A stretch of 36,475 nucleotides of DNA, from contig JAGWXV010000007.1 of the NCBI GenBank assembly GCA_018969705.1, positions 1-36,475 of the forward strand. Reading direction: 5' to 3'. The notes beneath the pieces were generated by a model. The model saw only the letters and a program-made list of their open reading frames with translations. It made no database searches and was not told the origin of the DNA. The DNA comes from Betaproteobacteria bacterium (lineage in GTDB: Bacteria; Pseudomonadota; Gammaproteobacteria; Burkholderiales; Burkholderiaceae_A). Positions within the stretch are counted from its first letter, which is position 1. The number at the start of each line of letters is the position of its first letter. The position numbers were made by a program, and so were the translations under genes. Of the stretch, positions 9,858 through 18,550 are shown in pieces.

Positions 9858-12392
9858 ATGGACAAAGCTCTGGTCATCGCAGAAAAGCCCAGCGTCGCCT
9901 CAGACATCGCCAAGGCTTTGGGCGGATTTACAAAACACGACGACGTCTTTGAGCGGGACGACATGGTGATCGCCTCGGCAGTGGGCCACCTACTGGAGAT
10001 CGTGGCTCCCGAAAAGTACGACGTAAAACGCGGTAAGTGGTCTTTTGCACAACTGCCGGTCATACCCCCAAATTTTGACCTCCAGCCGATCGCGAAAAGT
10101 GAGGCAAAGCTCAAAACCCTGTCTAAATTAATCAAGAACAAAGAAGTGGGTCGGCTGATCAATGCTTGTGACGCCGGCCGAGAAGGTGAGTTGATTTTTC
10201 GCTACATCGTTCAGCACACCAAGGCAAAGCAGCCTATAAGCCGGCTCTGGCTTCAGTCCATGACGCCTGCTGCGATCCGAGATGCGTTCGCCCAGCTACG
10301 CTCCGACCAGGAATTAATGCCCCTCGCCGACGCGGCCCGCTGCCGCTCTGAAGCAGATTGGCTGGTCGGCATTAACGGCACCCGGGCCATGACCGCCTTT
10401 AACTCCAAAGAGGGCGGCTTTTTCCTCACCACAGTTGGCCGTGTGCAGACCCCGACGCTGGCGGTGGTGGTCGGGCGGGAAGAAGCAATTCGGCGGTTTG
10501 TAGCGCGAGACTACTTTGAGGTGATTGCAACATTTGATTGTCAGGCCGGCCAATACCAGGGCCGTTGGGTTGCGCCTGACTTCAAGAAAAATGACGCCGA
10601 TCCTGAGCTCAGGCCGGAGCGCATATGGCAGGCGGCGAGCGCGGATCGCATCGTTGCCGAATGCCAATCCAAGCCTGCTGTGGTTCGCGAGGAGAGCAAA
10701 CCTTCGTCACAGTCAGCGCCAGCGCTGTTTGACCTTACCAGCCTGCAGCGAGAAGCTAATGCCCGCTTCGGATTTTCCGCCAAGAACACACTCGGCCTTG
10801 CCCAGGCGCTCTATGAGCGGCACAAGGTACTGACTTATCCAAGAACGGACTCCAAGGCCCTCCCCGAAGACTACATTGGCACGGTACAGACCACCATCGA
10901 ATCGCTTGGTGCGGCAGCTGAATTCGCAGGGTTTGCCAAAGACATCGCACGCAACAAATGGGTTCGACCCAACAAGCGCATCTTCGATAACAGCAAGGTC
11001 TCAGACCACTTCGCGATTATTCCCACCGGCGTGCTGCCGAAATCGTTATCCGAGCCTGAGCAAAAGATTTTTGATCTTGTCACCCGCCGACTTCTGGCGG
11101 TGTTTTATCCGGCCGCTGAATTTCAGGTCACAACCCGGATGAGCACCATCGGGCCCCACCAGTTCAAGACAGAAGGCAAGGTCCTCACTAGCCCTGGCTG
11201 GATGGTGGTTTACGGCAAAGATGCGGCATCTGATGACGCTGTACTCGTTGCGGTCGGCGCCTCGGAAAAGCCCACCGCACGCCTCGTTGAATCGAAGCCG
11301 CTAAAAACGCGGCCGCCCGCCAGATACAGCGAGGCCACACTTTTGTCTGCCATGGAGGGCGCAGGCCGACTTGTCGACGATGATGAGCTACGGGAGGCGA
11401 TGGCGGGCAAAGGCCTTGGAACTCCGGCAACACGGGCAGCCATTATCGAGGGCCTACTGGCCGAGAAATATTTGCTGCGCGACGGCCGAGAGCTCATTCC
11501 AACCGCAAAGGCATTCCAGCTTATGACACTGCTTAGGGGCCTGGATGTCAAAGAGCTGTCGCTGCCCGAACTGACCGGGGAGTGGGAACACAAGCTCCGT
11601 CAGATTGAAAATGGTTCCTTGTCTCGCGAAAACTTCATGCGAGAAATCGCTCAAATGACAGAGCACATTGTCAGCCAAGCGAAGAATTACACCAACGACA
11701 CCATTCCGGGTGACTATGCCACCCTAAAAACACCCTGCCCAAAGTGCGGGGCGACTGTAAAAGAAAACTATCGTCGATTCGCATGCTCATCTTGCGATTT
11801 TTCGATTTCCAAAATCCCAGGAGGCCGGGCATTCGAAATTTCTGAGGTGGAATCCCTATTGAAAGATAAGGTGTTCGGTCCAGTAGATGGTTTTCGCAGC
11901 AAGCTTGGCCGGCCGTTTATGGCCAGCCTGAAAATTACTGCGGAACATAAGCTTGAATTTGATTTTGGCAATAGTGGATCTGAGGCTGATGTCGAGCCCG
12001 TTGATTTCAGTGGTCAAGAGCCTCTCGGGGCGTGCCCTAAATGCGAAGCATCAGTGTATGCCCACGGCACCTCATATGTCTGCGAAAAAAGCGTTGGGCC
12101 AACGCCCGCTTGTGACTTTAGAACCGGCATGATGATTCTGCAGCAAGCAATCTCGGCCGATCAGGTTAAAAAACTGCTTGAGTCTGGAAAAACGGATCTT
12201 TTGGATGGCTTTGTTTCTGCGCGCACGCGGCGTAAATTTAAAGCGTTTTTAGTGAAGACTCCCGGGGGGAAAATTGGCTTCGAATTTGAGGCAAGACCAG
12301 TAAAATCGCCCAAAGGTCCGGAAGACAAAAAGGTAGGGGCCACCAAAACCTCTAAACCTACTCGGTCACGCGCAAGCAGCAAGGCCGCTTAA
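9858..12392 (+). CDS. topB: DNA topoisomerase III (type IA)
   Basis: Type IA topoisomerase that relaxes or decatenates DNA through a single-strand break. From the ATG at 9858 it has 844 residues; another ATG at 9843 adds MIRAS and is less likely because MDKALVIAEKPSVA is the family N-terminus. The Toprim domain has the IAEKPS glutamate and DAGREGELI. The active tyrosine is Y327 in LTYPRTDS. Two C-terminal zinc ribbons follow (CPKCG from about 627 with CSSC; CPKCE later), then a basic Ala/Ser/Lys tail. TopB rather than TopA is supported by the N-terminus and DAGREGELIFRYI. Its stop is one base from the stop of the convergent nucleotidase gene. No ribosome site is evident. Confidence 0.93.
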   Translation: MDKALVIAEKPSVASDIAKALGGFTKHDDVFERDDMVIASAVGHLLEIVAPEKYDVKRGKWSFAQLPVIPPNFDLQPIAKSEAKLKTLSKLIKNKEVGRLINACDAGREGELIFRYIVQHTKAKQPISRLWLQSMTPAAIRDAFAQLRSDQELMPLADAARCRSEADWLVGINGTRAMTAFNSKEGGFFLTTVGRVQTPTLAVVVGREEAIRRFVARDYFEVIATFDCQAGQYQGRWVAPDFKKNDADPELRPERIWQAASADRIVAECQSKPAVVREESKPSSQSAPALFDLTSLQREANARFGFSAKNTLGLAQALYERHKVLTYPRTDSKALPEDYIGTVQTTIESLGAAAEFAGFAKDIARNKWVRPNKRIFDNSKVSDHFAIIPTGVLPKSLSEPEQKIFDLVTRRLLAVFYPAAEFQVTTRMSTIGPHQFKTEGKVLTSPGWMVVYGKDAASDDAVLVAVGASEKPTARLVESKPLKTRPPARYSEATLLSAMEGAGRLVDDDELREAMAGKGLGTPATRAAIIEGLLAEKYLLRDGRELIPTAKAFQLMTLLRGLDVKELSLPELTGEWEHKLRQIENGSLSRENFMREIAQMTEHIVSQAKNYTNDTIPGDYATLKTPCPKCGATVKENYRRFACSSCDFSISKIPGGRAFEISEVESLLKDKVFGPVDGFRSKLGRPFMASLKITAEHKLEFDFGNSGSEADVEPVDFSGQEPLGACPKCEASVYAHGTSYVCEKSVGPTPACDFRTGMMILQQAISADQVKKLLESGKTDLLDGFVSARTRRKFKAFLVKTPGGKIGFEFEARPVKSPKGPEDKKVGATKTSKPTRSRASSKAA

Positions 12393-15816: not shown

Positions 15817-16944
15817 TTAGATCCGCATTGGCATTACAACGTACTTAAACTCAGGGTCACTTTCTGAGGTGATCAATGCGCTTGCGTTGGGGTCTTGTAA
15901 AGCGATGTGAATGGAGTCGCTTTTCAGGTTAGATAAAACATCAATTAGATATTGAACGTTAAACCCAATATCAACCGATTCGCCTTGATACTCCACCTCA
16001 ATATCGTCAGAGGCTTCTTCTTGTTCTGCGTTTGTCGAGGATATCTTGAGTGAGCCCGCAGAAAGGGTAAGTCGTACCCCTTTAAATTTATCGGTTGTCA
16101 AAATCGCGGCACGCTGCAAAGCCCCCAAAAAAAGCTCGCGATTGATTGGCACGATCTTTTGATGTTGAGCGGGGATAACGCGCTGGTAGTCTGGGAACTT
16201 GCCTTCAATCAGTTTTGATAAAAGCTCAACTTGACCGAAACGGAATCGGGCCTGGTTTGAAGCGAGTTCTATCGTAACGGGGTTATCAGAATCATCGAGT
16301 AATCGTTGGCATTCAATGACTGCTTTTCGTGGAATGATGACTTCTTGACGTTCGCCATTAATTTTGATTTCTACCTCTTTGGTTTCCTGTGTAACCGCGC
16401 TGTAGGCGAGCCGATGACCATCCGTTGCTACTGCTTTGAGGCTTGATTGATCAATCACCAGCAACAATCCGTTGAGGTAATAACGAATATCTTGCTGAGC
16501 CATAGCAAAATGCACGAGATGAAGGAGTTGCCTTAATGTGCGCTGAGGCAGTGTAATACTTGCTGGGTATTGATCTGCTGCAACAACAGTTGGGAAATCT
16601 TCGGCCGGGAGTGTCTGAAGGCTGAATTTCGCTTTACCTTGGGTGAGTGATAGTTTTTTGTTGGCGTAGGAAACGGTAATTTCATGCTGTTCTGGCAGCG
16701 CCCTAAGGATATCCAGAAGCTTTCTGGCTGCTACCGTGGTGGATAAAGGTTCATCTCCTGTTGCCATCTCAGAAGATGTTTGAATTTGCATTTCAATATC
16801 AGTCGAGCAAAAAGTGACATTTTGCAGTTTTTTGCTAATCAATACGTTGGAGAGTATTGGAAGTGTATGCCGGCGTTCGACAATCCCAGTAACAGTTTGT
16901 AGCGGCTTGAGTAAAGCGTCTCGCTGAGCTTTGATAAGAATCAT
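15817..16944 (-). CDS. dnaN: DNA polymerase III beta sliding clamp
   Basis: Ring-shaped clamp that tethers DNA polymerase III to DNA. The 375 residues match the family length (366 in E. coli). The N-terminus (LIKAQRDALLKPLQTVTGIVE with RRHTLPILSNVLI) and the terminal YVVMPMRI are diagnostic. The ATG at 16944 has no ribosome site; the upstream bases are almost pure A/T because they belong to the predicted unwinding end of the origin. A TAATTT lies 8 bases before the ATG on the coding strand and could be a -10 box giving a very short leader. GC content is visibly lower than in mnmG or the ntrY operon. Confidence 0.97.
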   Translation of the reverse strand: MILIKAQRDALLKPLQTVTGIVERRHTLPILSNVLISKKLQNVTFCSTDIEMQIQTSSEMATGDEPLSTTVAARKLLDILRALPEQHEITVSYANKKLSLTQGKAKFSLQTLPAEDFPTVVAADQYPASITLPQRTLRQLLHLVHFAMAQQDIRYYLNGLLLVIDQSSLKAVATDGHRLAYSAVTQETKEVEIKINGERQEVIIPRKAVIECQRLLDDSDNPVTIELASNQARFRFGQVELLSKLIEGKFPDYQRVIPAQHQKIVPINRELFLGALQRAAILTTDKFKGVRLTLSAGSLKISSTNAEQEEASDDIEVEYQGESVDIGFNVQYLIDVLSNLKSDSIHIALQDPNASALITSESDPEFKYVVMPMRI

Positions 16945-17141
16945 AATATTTAAAATTAGGATTAGTAGATAAGGGGGCTGAAAGCTGTGGATATGTTGGC
17001 TGACAGGTTGGCAGGCCTACTGCGTAAGGAAATTAAAAACTGGGGATAACTTTTGAGTAAGTTATTGAGGTTGTGTACAACCTGGGGCGCATCGTTTTTG
17101 GGGCTTAAGTTTTGCCCAAACGGTTTTGGTTTACTCACAGC
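16945..17141. other. Candidate replication origin oriC (dnaN-dnaA spacer)
   Basis: A 197-base spacer, the longest gene-free stretch here. It has DnaA-box-like nonamers on the minus-strand sense: TGTGGATAT at 16986-16994 (one mismatch to TGTGGATAA), TGGGGATAA at 17041-17049 (one mismatch) and TGTGTACAA at 17072-17080 (one mismatch to the TTATACACA variant). TTATCCACG at 17142-17150 adjoins it. Next to the first box are a G-rich cluster (16973-16977), TAGTAG-type trinucleotides (16956-16968) and an A/T-rich end (16942-16957). Gene strand preference switches here. The dnaA-rpmH gap is the alternative site, but it is only 138 bases with one box. Confidence 0.6.
17068..17083. repeat. Perfect 7-base inverted repeat in the origin spacer
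   Basis: AGGTTGT-GT-ACAACCT, a 16-base palindrome with a 2-base centre. It encloses a DnaA-box-like TGTGTACAA. A dimeric regulator of replication or DnaA itself could bind; no family is recognised. Confidence 0.55.
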
Positions 17142-17150
17142 TTATCCACG
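17142..17150 (+). promoter_or_regulatory. DnaA box overlapping the dnaA stop codon
   Basis: TTATCCACG differs from the consensus TTATCCACA only at the last base. Its first three bases are the complement of the dnaA stop codon TAA, so the box continues the origin array into the gene end. Confidence 0.6.
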
Positions 17151-18515
17151 GAGTTGTTGTTCAAGGACATGGAGTTGATGATTAAGCTCGGCGTTTCTTG
17201 GGCGCAAATCAGAGATTTTTTTGACAGCATGAAGCACTGTAGTGTGATCGCGACCACCAAACAAGTCTCCGATCTCAGGGAAGCTTTTTTGAGTGAGCTC
17301 TTTTGCAAGATACATTGCAATTTGTCTCGGCAGTGCAATGTTGGCCGGCCGGCGTTTGCTATACATGTCAGCGACTTTAATATTGTAGAAGTCGGCGACA
17401 GATTTCTGAATGTTTTCGACTGAGATAAGCGTTTTTTGTAGTGAGAGAAGGTCTTTAAGTGCTTCACGCACTGTTTCATTAGACGGCCCACAGTTATGAA
17501 AATCGCAGTAAGCAATTATTTTTTTCAGTGCACCCTCAAGTTCGCGCACATTTGAACGCAGCTGTTTGGCAATAAAAAATGCCTCTTCTTCTGGCAAGGC
17601 AAACGATTCGATGTCTGCTTTTTTCATCAGAATCGCAACACGCATTTCTAGCTCTGGGGGCTCAATTGCAACGGTCAGGCCAGACGAAAACCGTGTCAAC
17701 AATCGAGGATTGATCTCGCCAAGTTCTGTGGGATAGGTGTCGCTCGTGATGATGATTTGTTTTTGGGCCGCAATGAGGGCTTCGAAAGCATAAAAGAATT
17801 CTTCTTGAGTTCGTTGTTTGCCGGCAAAAAACTGAATGTCATCGATCAGCAGTAGATCAAGCGAGTGGTAATACCGCTTAAACTCATCAAAAGATTTGCG
17901 TTGGTAGGCCTTTACGACATCACTGACATAGGCCTCGGCATGAATGTAACGGGCGCGAGCATTTGGGTTTCGTTGTGTGAGCGCATTACCCACCGCATGA
18001 ATTAAGTGGCTCTTGCCAAGACCCACACCGCCATAAATAAAAAGCGGGTTATAGCCCCTACCGGGATTGTCAGCGACCTGAAGGGCCGCTGCCCGGGCCA
18101 ATTGATTGGCTTTTCCTGGAACAAAAGTCTCGAAACTCCAGTCAATATTGAGACGGCTTTGTGAGACAACGGATTCAGGTAAGTTTTTTGTGTTCTTAAG
18201 TTCGGGTGGCGCGGCTGTGGCGGCTGCTGGTTGCGGGGACTCGGAGTGGGCCGGCGGCACTACCTGGCCGTTAATTTCGATTTCAAGCTCAACAGGGGTG
18301 CCGAGATGGCTGGACCACCAGGCGCTTAGGGCCGAAGAAAACTGATTTTTGGCCCAGCTTTGTTTAAACCGGGTTGGCGCGGACAGCACGACACGGCTGC
18401 TCTGACCGCCTTGATCAATGCGAAGCAAGGCAAGCGGCTTAAACCAGGTCTGGAATTGCTGGCCCGGCAATTCCCGCTCAAAGTGCAAAAGGCAGTCTTG
18501 CCACAGCGATTCCAT
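17142..18515 (-). CDS. dnaA: Chromosomal replication initiator DnaA
   Basis: AAA+ ATPase that binds DnaA boxes and melts oriC. The 457 residues comprise domain I (1-85, [24 protein letters not shown]), a Pro/Ala linker (about 88-120), the AAA+ domain with Walker A GGVGLGKS at 162-169 and Walker [11 protein letters not shown], and DNA-binding domain IV with the signature [15 protein letters not shown]. The ATG at 18515 has no ribosome site; TAAAAT at 18522-18527 (minus strand) lies 6 bases before it, so the mRNA may be leaderless. A perfect DnaA box at 18542-18550 covers the presumed -35 region, which fits autorepression. It reads toward dnaN and gyrB. Confidence 0.98.
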
Positions 18516-18521
18516 GTTTGG

Positions 18522-18550
18522 ATTTTACCGGATTAAGAGAGTTATCCACA
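18522..18550 (-). promoter_or_regulatory. Presumed dnaA promoter with overlapping DnaA box
   Basis: On the minus strand TAAAAT (18527-18522) is a good -10 box 6 bases before the dnaA ATG. The -35 position, 17 bases further, falls in TGTGGA, a poor -35 but part of the perfect DnaA box TTATCCACA (18542-18550, plus-strand sense). Binding there should block polymerase, the known mode of dnaA autoregulation. Confidence 0.5.

Follow-up and report, generated by a model that had tools for sequence, protein, structure and literature searches.

Described unwinding elements and the layout beside dnaN

In Bacillus subtilis, the DnaA filament starts at a DnaA box, and neighbouring DnaA molecules capture two bases of each trio while the third faces away (PMC10721633). 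In an assay with B. subtilis DnaA, a single-base deletion that shifted the register slowed unwinding, and also deleting two adjacent base pairs restored it (PMC6669920). The bacterial basal unwinding system (BUS) has been predicted in 1755 of 2070 species, using a search rule that combines a box with at most two mismatches, at least three contiguous NAN trios and a spacer of 0-16 nt (PMC8287927). A further described case is the oriC2 DUE of Helicobacter pylori (PMC8235120). Our comparisons with these systems draw on excerpts of the four reports.

The window analysed here is a stretch of 36,475 nucleotides in which, in plus-strand reading, gyrB, dnaN and dnaA (all on the minus strand) are followed by rnpA, yidC and mnmE on the plus strand. 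The rnpA match scores under the curated cut-off, and rpmH, which precedes rnpA, was read from the sequence. The relatives of the encoded DnaA come mostly from Burkholderiales. Between dnaA and dnaN lies a gap of 197 bp, the dnaN end of which reads on the minus strand as ATATCCACA GCTTTCAGCCCCC TTA T, triplets and AAT ATT ATG. Written out from 16994 to 16942, the minus strand is ATATCCACA GCTTTCAG CCCCC TTA T CTA CTA ATC CTA ATT TTA AAT ATT ATG. The features of the locus are as follows.

18542..18550, plus strand: consensus DnaA box TTATCCACA upstream of dnaA, perfect match
17142..18515, minus strand: dnaA (TIGR00362, 536.6 bits, full-length protein)
17142..17150, plus strand: inverted DnaA box TTATCCACG, overlapping the dnaA stop codon, from the sequence
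17072..17080, minus strand: weak DnaA box TTGTACACA, 2 mismatches
17041..17049, minus strand: upstream DnaA box TTATCCCCA, 1 mismatch
16986..16994, minus strand: putative DUE-proximal DnaA box ATATCCACA, 1 mismatch to TTATCCACA; a box with at most 1 mismatch here in 7/7 g1 genomes
16973..16977, minus strand: C cluster CCCCC before the first triplet, from the sequence
16970..16972, minus strand: TTA, the first triplet (trio 3'-AAT-5'), 13 nt behind the box; 7/7 g1 genomes have YTA at 13 nt, order-wide peak at 13/14 nt
16969..16969, minus strand: one additional T, shifting the register; T in 6/10 and A in 4/10 layout-bearing family members
16951..16968, minus strand: six contiguous triplets CTA CTA ATC CTA ATT TTA (trios 3'-GAT GAT TAG GAT TAA AAT-5'), from sequence and score
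16943..16972, minus strand: least stable 30-bp stretch of the window, by nearest-neighbour energies
15817..16944, minus strand: dnaN (TIGR00663, 334.5 bits), ATG at 16944-16942

The box at 18542-18550 probably serves dnaA autoregulation. The original prediction had described a DnaA box, a G/C cluster, trinucleotide repeats and an A/T-rich end on the minus strand, and this layout was correct, both by direct reading and by a score of 9 that shuffled sequences did not match (see below). The predicted agreement with the basal unwinding element in order and polarity is likewise supported by what the excerpts of PMC8287927 and PMC6669920 describe. Its trinucleotide repeats needed amending: triplets are present, but they do not keep one register, as the main run comes only after a TTA at 13 nt and one further T, a one-base shift that had been missed. 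The G/C cluster recurs in relatives: counted from the box, offsets 9, 10 and 11 are G or C in 9/10, 8/10 and 10/10 layout-bearing family members, respectively.

With the predicted BUS (PMC8287927) the element shares a box within two mismatches of TTATCCACA (ATATCCACA has one) and at least three contiguous central-A trios, seen as six contiguous NTN on the complementary strand; the box lies 5' of the triplets and reads into them, the antisense score being 0. It differs by its distance. Between the conserved box and the main run lie 17 nt, where the published limit is 16, the spacer is 13 nt if the lone TTA is counted, and the rule is passed only via TTATCTACT, the box letters of which are not conserved. 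When the reimplemented rule was applied to the last 110 bp of the ten layout-bearing gaps of the family, it returned nothing in four (G001, G002, G006, G015), TTATCTACT as the box in two (G000, G004), a match elsewhere in the gap in two (G007, G011) and a run of three triplets 13 nt behind the correct box in two (G003, G005).

The B. subtilis incC BUS (PMC6669920, PMC10721633), as far as the excerpts go, also consists of a box, a short G/C stretch, central-A trios on one strand and an A/T end at an origin beside dnaA. In contrast to it, the present element has a single clear box in place of the box 6/7 pair, an extra base after the first trio and an array that reaches the dnaN ATG. The H. pylori oriC2 DUE resembles it in its box, GC-rich stretch, CTA triplets and AT-rich end and differs in having two fused boxes of another consensus; the excerpted account mentions no triplet shift (PMC8235120). 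Polynucleobacter-type origins (L073, L075, L082) agree in place, box and TTA at 13 nt, whereas their register is contiguous (13, 16, 19, 22, 25) and the way to dnaN is longer, with AAGGA before dnaN. In place and order the element is ordinary for a bacterial origin; as to its kind it is a BUS whose layout departs from the published rule. No description of a shifted DnaA-trio array was found in the PMC full texts searched.

Comparison with shuffled sequences and duplex stability

We scored the layout as the number of consecutive NTN triplets plus the number of CTA triplets behind a box with at most one mismatch, at a spacer of 8-20 nt. By this score, chosen together with the spacer range after the element had been seen, the element reaches 9 (six contiguous NTN, three CTA). 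None of 2000 dinucleotide shuffles of the gap reached 9, nor did any of 100 shuffles of the whole window, read on both strands, where the maximum was 6. The next independent match in the window scores 3; a row with score 5 is the same element shortened by the scan length. The 209 bp from 16942 to 17150 contain three boxes with at most one mismatch, compared to a shuffle mean of 0.06, and three were reached by 0/2000 shuffles. Among non-overlapping stretches of the window, the element region is the third least stable at 50 bp and the seventh at 100 bp by nearest-neighbour energy. A search of Rfam gave no match at gathering scores.

Conservation in the genus and family

Family f1, to which the window belongs, was represented by 26 genomes, 22 of them with a DnaA match (one short and weak) and 21 with a usable gap. 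All seven genomes of g1, the genus of the window, have a box with at most one mismatch followed by YTA at 13, 17 and 26 nt. The layout also occurs in G007 and G015 and, with a two-mismatch box, in G011. The pattern TATNCACA-N13-YTAWYTA has exactly one match per genome in the seven g1 genomes, G007 and G015, always just before dnaN; among the 26 family genomes there are two extra matches (one each in G014 and G020) with neither dnaA nor dnaN nearby, and reversing the pattern as a control likewise gives two matches in the 26. The contiguous pattern TATNCACA-N13-YTAYTAY is found in 0/26 family genomes.

We aligned the ten layout-bearing gaps, using all seven g1 genomes and with YTA at 13 and 17 as the selection condition. 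The triplet letters at 22, 27 and 28 are identical in 10/10, as are those at 14, 15, 18 and 19, which were selected for; invariance is independent of the choice of rows only at 22, 27, 28 and 36 and in the box letters. The shift also occurs in four of the eight g2 genomes (G007, G011, G013 and G015, of which G013 lacks a good box), the other four having contiguous triplets, as do 6/6 genomes of g3 (the triplets of G020 contain N letters). These states of g2 and g3 were assigned by eye and then mapped on a DnaA tree of 29 rows, giving the shift in all seven g1 genomes (one clade, 100/100), 4/8 of g2 and 0/6 of g3. The mapping implies five changes over 26 labelled rows (five of them outside the family), or at least three by starred branches. 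Given five changes on the tree, a single origin of the shift is not supported.

The g3 loci (L016, L017, L019, L020, L021, L117) keep triplet arrays before dnaN and have a box with at most one mismatch upstream of dnaA in 0/6. In four of the six there is no such box in the dnaA-dnaN gap either, yet a 12-residue stretch of DnaA, which we take to be the recognition helix, is unchanged.

Triplet registers across Burkholderiales

For the order-wide survey, gaps were collected from 80 named loci and 50 others, then from 118 of 120 further loci (two were without a dnaN match); for two of the 118, the end of dnaA is an estimate. Scored for contiguous triplets only, 113 distinct gaps from the 130 loci reach at least 5 in 24 cases in sense and in one in antisense, compared to a mean of 1 and a maximum of 3 in 20 rounds of mononucleotide shuffling. 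The other 89 of the 113 gaps lie below 5, many at zero. As G001, G003 and G007 scored poorly in this way, a shifted register was looked for.

With the named set kept apart, the remaining 168 loci (50 + 118) yielded 155 distinct gaps of at least 40 bp. A box with at most one mismatch is present in the last 110 bp of 66/155 and absent from 89/155. Behind the 66 boxes, YTA peaks at 13 nt (22 gaps) and 14 nt (18), compared to 2.2 on average over offsets 0-12; YTA at 13 or 14 nt thus marks 40/66 box-bearing gaps, which come from 17 families. In these 40 gaps, where shuffling leads to an expectation of about 3.6 YTA per position, further YTA follow the first in register at +3 (17 gaps), +6 (10), +9 (8) and +12 (12), shifted by one at +4 (14), +7 (9), +10 (8) and +13 (10), and shifted by two at +5 (1), +8 (5), +11 (1) and +14 (2). 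From these counts, ladders hold register 0 or +1 and seldom +2. The 14/40 gaps of the +4 class comprise nine from f1, four from f21 and one from f50, and since most are from related genomes, the shuffle test of this class overstates independence.

Lineages differ in where the extra base falls: behind the first trio in g1, behind the second in individual genomes from f4 and f14, and at both of two steps in f21. In f21 (G045, G132, G195, G250; L116, L213, L245, L251) triplets recur every 4 nt, at offsets 14, 18 and 22 (YTAT TTAT CTAT), and this spacing is seen in 4/5 f21 genomes with a box.

The dnaN-side position is not universal in the order, given the 89/155 gaps without a box and 14/80 named loci with a gap of just 2-3 bp. 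In these 14, from Bordetella, Achromobacter and others (L034, L040, L043, L047, L049, L053, L057, L062, L071, L080, L094, L102, L106, L108), so short a gap means that the unwinding site is probably elsewhere. One locus, L032 (CAMAZF010000001.1, titled Bordetella parapertussis MAG), has the same dnaA-dnaN gap as G013 and a DnaA 67% identical to that of the window; its species name looks wrong.

Position of the chromosome origin

The assembly containing the window has 1.45 Mb in 214 contigs, a state that points to a metagenome-assembled genome. As it is too fragmented for a skew curve, skew was taken from the complete genome G001 of the same genus, sampled as 40 20-kb stretches that together cover 800 kb of its 2.05 Mb. 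Of the 22 stretches between dnaA and 1.07 Mb, 20 have positive skew, and all 18 from 1.10 Mb onwards are negative. The local minimum lies at +2830, 2.8 kb from the start of the record and 1.2 kb beyond the gap. Exact TTATCCACA boxes number three in the first of the 40 stretches and one each in two others, with none in the remaining 37. In the window itself, the skew curve stays flat between about 11 and 16.5 kb and has its minimum at 11351, 5.6 kb from the element. The skew check proposed with the original prediction, carried out on G001, thus finds the sign change at the dnaA end of the contig, but skew cannot tell the dnaA-dnaN gap apart from the rpmH-dnaA gap, which lies about 1.4 kb away. 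The location of the element at the origin is, in this respect, supported indirectly by the sampled skew of a relative.

The original prediction also placed the melting site at the 5' end of dnaN. Here it is supported: the window has its box cluster, its triplets and its melting minimum in or at the dnaA-dnaN gap and none of them in the rpmH-dnaA gap, in which the score scan found one DnaA box and no triplet array. Taken together, the score, the conservation, the skew of the relative, the absence of a box-triplet unit upstream of dnaA and the low stability very probably identify the element as the origin unwinding element. Judged from sequence, then, it is with high likelihood the BUS-type strand-opening site of the chromosome origin, situated between dnaA and dnaN, with its end at the dnaN start codon.

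Alternative readings of the element

The origin might instead melt in the rpmH-dnaA gap, the boxes before dnaN being merely regulatory. The perfect TTATCCACA at 18542-18550 would fit this, as would the perfect box upstream of dnaA in 15/15 g1 and g2 genomes (0/6 in g3) and the failure of skew to separate the two gaps flanking dnaA. Two g2 genomes also have at least three NTN at 13 nt from the upstream box on the strand leading away from dnaA, namely G013 (CTA GTA CTA) and G011 (six NTN, one YTA). Against this, the rpmH-dnaA gap is without a box-plus-triplet array in the window and in five of the other six g1 genomes (G001 being covered for 37 bp upstream), and the shifted layout occurs upstream of dnaA in 0/21 family genomes. 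Unshifted triplet matches there were seen in G003, G010, G011 and G013, and only that of G013 resembles a trio run; G003 has three NTN, none of them YTA, and G010 a five-NTN run without YTA behind a two-mismatch box. In the window, moreover, the rpmH-dnaA stretch is the more stable (best 30-bp energy -1.21 vs -0.978 for the element), and we regard melting upstream of dnaA as very unlikely. Still less probable, and scarcely to be expected, is a sequence conserved for dnaN expression and not for replication. It does end at the dnaN ATG, the expected place of a ribosome site, but the element contains no ribosome-site-like match of at least 4 nt and has a DnaA box at fixed spacing instead; in other families, e.g., Polynucleobacter, the box-triplet unit stands farther from the ATG, with a ribosome-site-like stretch between.

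Within the preferred reading as an unwinding element, the register can be read in other ways. The published rule, as reimplemented, returns TTATCTACT (16972-16964, two mismatches) in the window and also in G004, and if this were the true DUE-proximal box, the trios would be merely ATC CTA ATT TTA. The 9-mer drifts in other relatives (TTATTTATT, TTAACTATT, CTAACTACT), however, while triplet letters 22, 27 and 28 are the same in 10/10; TTATCTACT was rejected as a box on this drift, and we consider it highly improbable. A more serious competitor, with a substantial minority share of the probability, is that TTA at 13 nt is no trio, leaving a BUS with a plain 17-nt spacer, one register and no 4-nt step. 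The six-triplet run is self-sufficient, and, according to the excerpts of PMC8287927, the published spacer may exceed 16 if a weak second box falls within it. No second box with at most four mismatches follows within 3 nt of the first, however (the window has five to six mismatches there, and four at 4 nt only). YTA at 13/14 nt is moreover the first-triplet position across the order, genomes with contiguous arrays included, and the first YTA persists in 7/7 g1 genomes, its first base alternating between C and T.

A possible four-nucleotide step of the DnaA filament

In the proposed mechanism, DnaA would bind the box at 16994-16986, aided by the upstream boxes, and the filament would then cross the C cluster and capture the trio strand, i.e., the complement of TTA.T.CTA CTA ATC CTA ATT TTA. 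This strand reads 3'-AAT A GAT GAT TAG GAT TAA AAT-5'. The duplex would open at about 16972-16943 for helicase loading. With the first trio at the usual 13 nt, the next would follow after a 4-nt rather than a 3-nt step, and the extra base would probably join the base that is left outside the pocket in the B. subtilis structure. Since the extra base adjoins the uncaptured third base of the first trio, one DnaA pair would span four bases.

Because a one-base shift slowed unwinding in B. subtilis (PMC6669920), a conserved one is unexpected, and its natural conservation is a real puzzle unless the first TTA is unused. We tentatively suggest, at somewhat less than even probability, that in several lineages of Burkholderiales the DnaA filament makes a step of 4 nt, an extra uncaptured base being tolerated or selected at a fixed place; ladders would shift by +1 and rarely by +2, and a contiguous-trio rule would miss or mis-assign such origins. 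The conserved shift matters because register counts in vitro in B. subtilis (PMC6669920) and because a possible place for an extra base is suggested by the structure (PMC10721633), as far as the excerpts describe them. If mixed 3- and 4-nt steps were true, shifted ladders may be present in part of the 15% of origins for which no BUS was predicted (PMC8287927), and filament flexibility would be directly measurable.

Compared with B. subtilis DnaA, the trio-contact residues of the window DnaA are in part identical and in part changed (contact sites E194, S198, V201, Y204, K213, K233, E239). E194, S198, V201, Y204 and K207 stand at the places of B. subtilis E183, N187, I190, I193 and N196, and K213, K233, Q234 and E239 at those of R202, K222, E223 and E228. 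The arginine finger R275 is at the place of R264.

The start of dnaN and a possibly displaced site in one relative

In f1 the ladder ends at or near the dnaN start codon, and 18/21 genomes are without even a 4-nt ribosome-binding match, compared to 38/137 gaps in other families. In this family, the ribosome site seems to have given way to the unwinding element. In the window, dnaN is without a clear ribosome-binding site at 16925-16944 and the triplet ladder extends to the ATG; in G017 the last triplet extends into the dnaN ATG.

In G013 (L008), a perfect box upstream of dnaA is followed by CTA GTA CTA at 13 nt, reading away from dnaA, and no good box stands before dnaN. The unwinding site of this genome may have moved upstream of dnaA.
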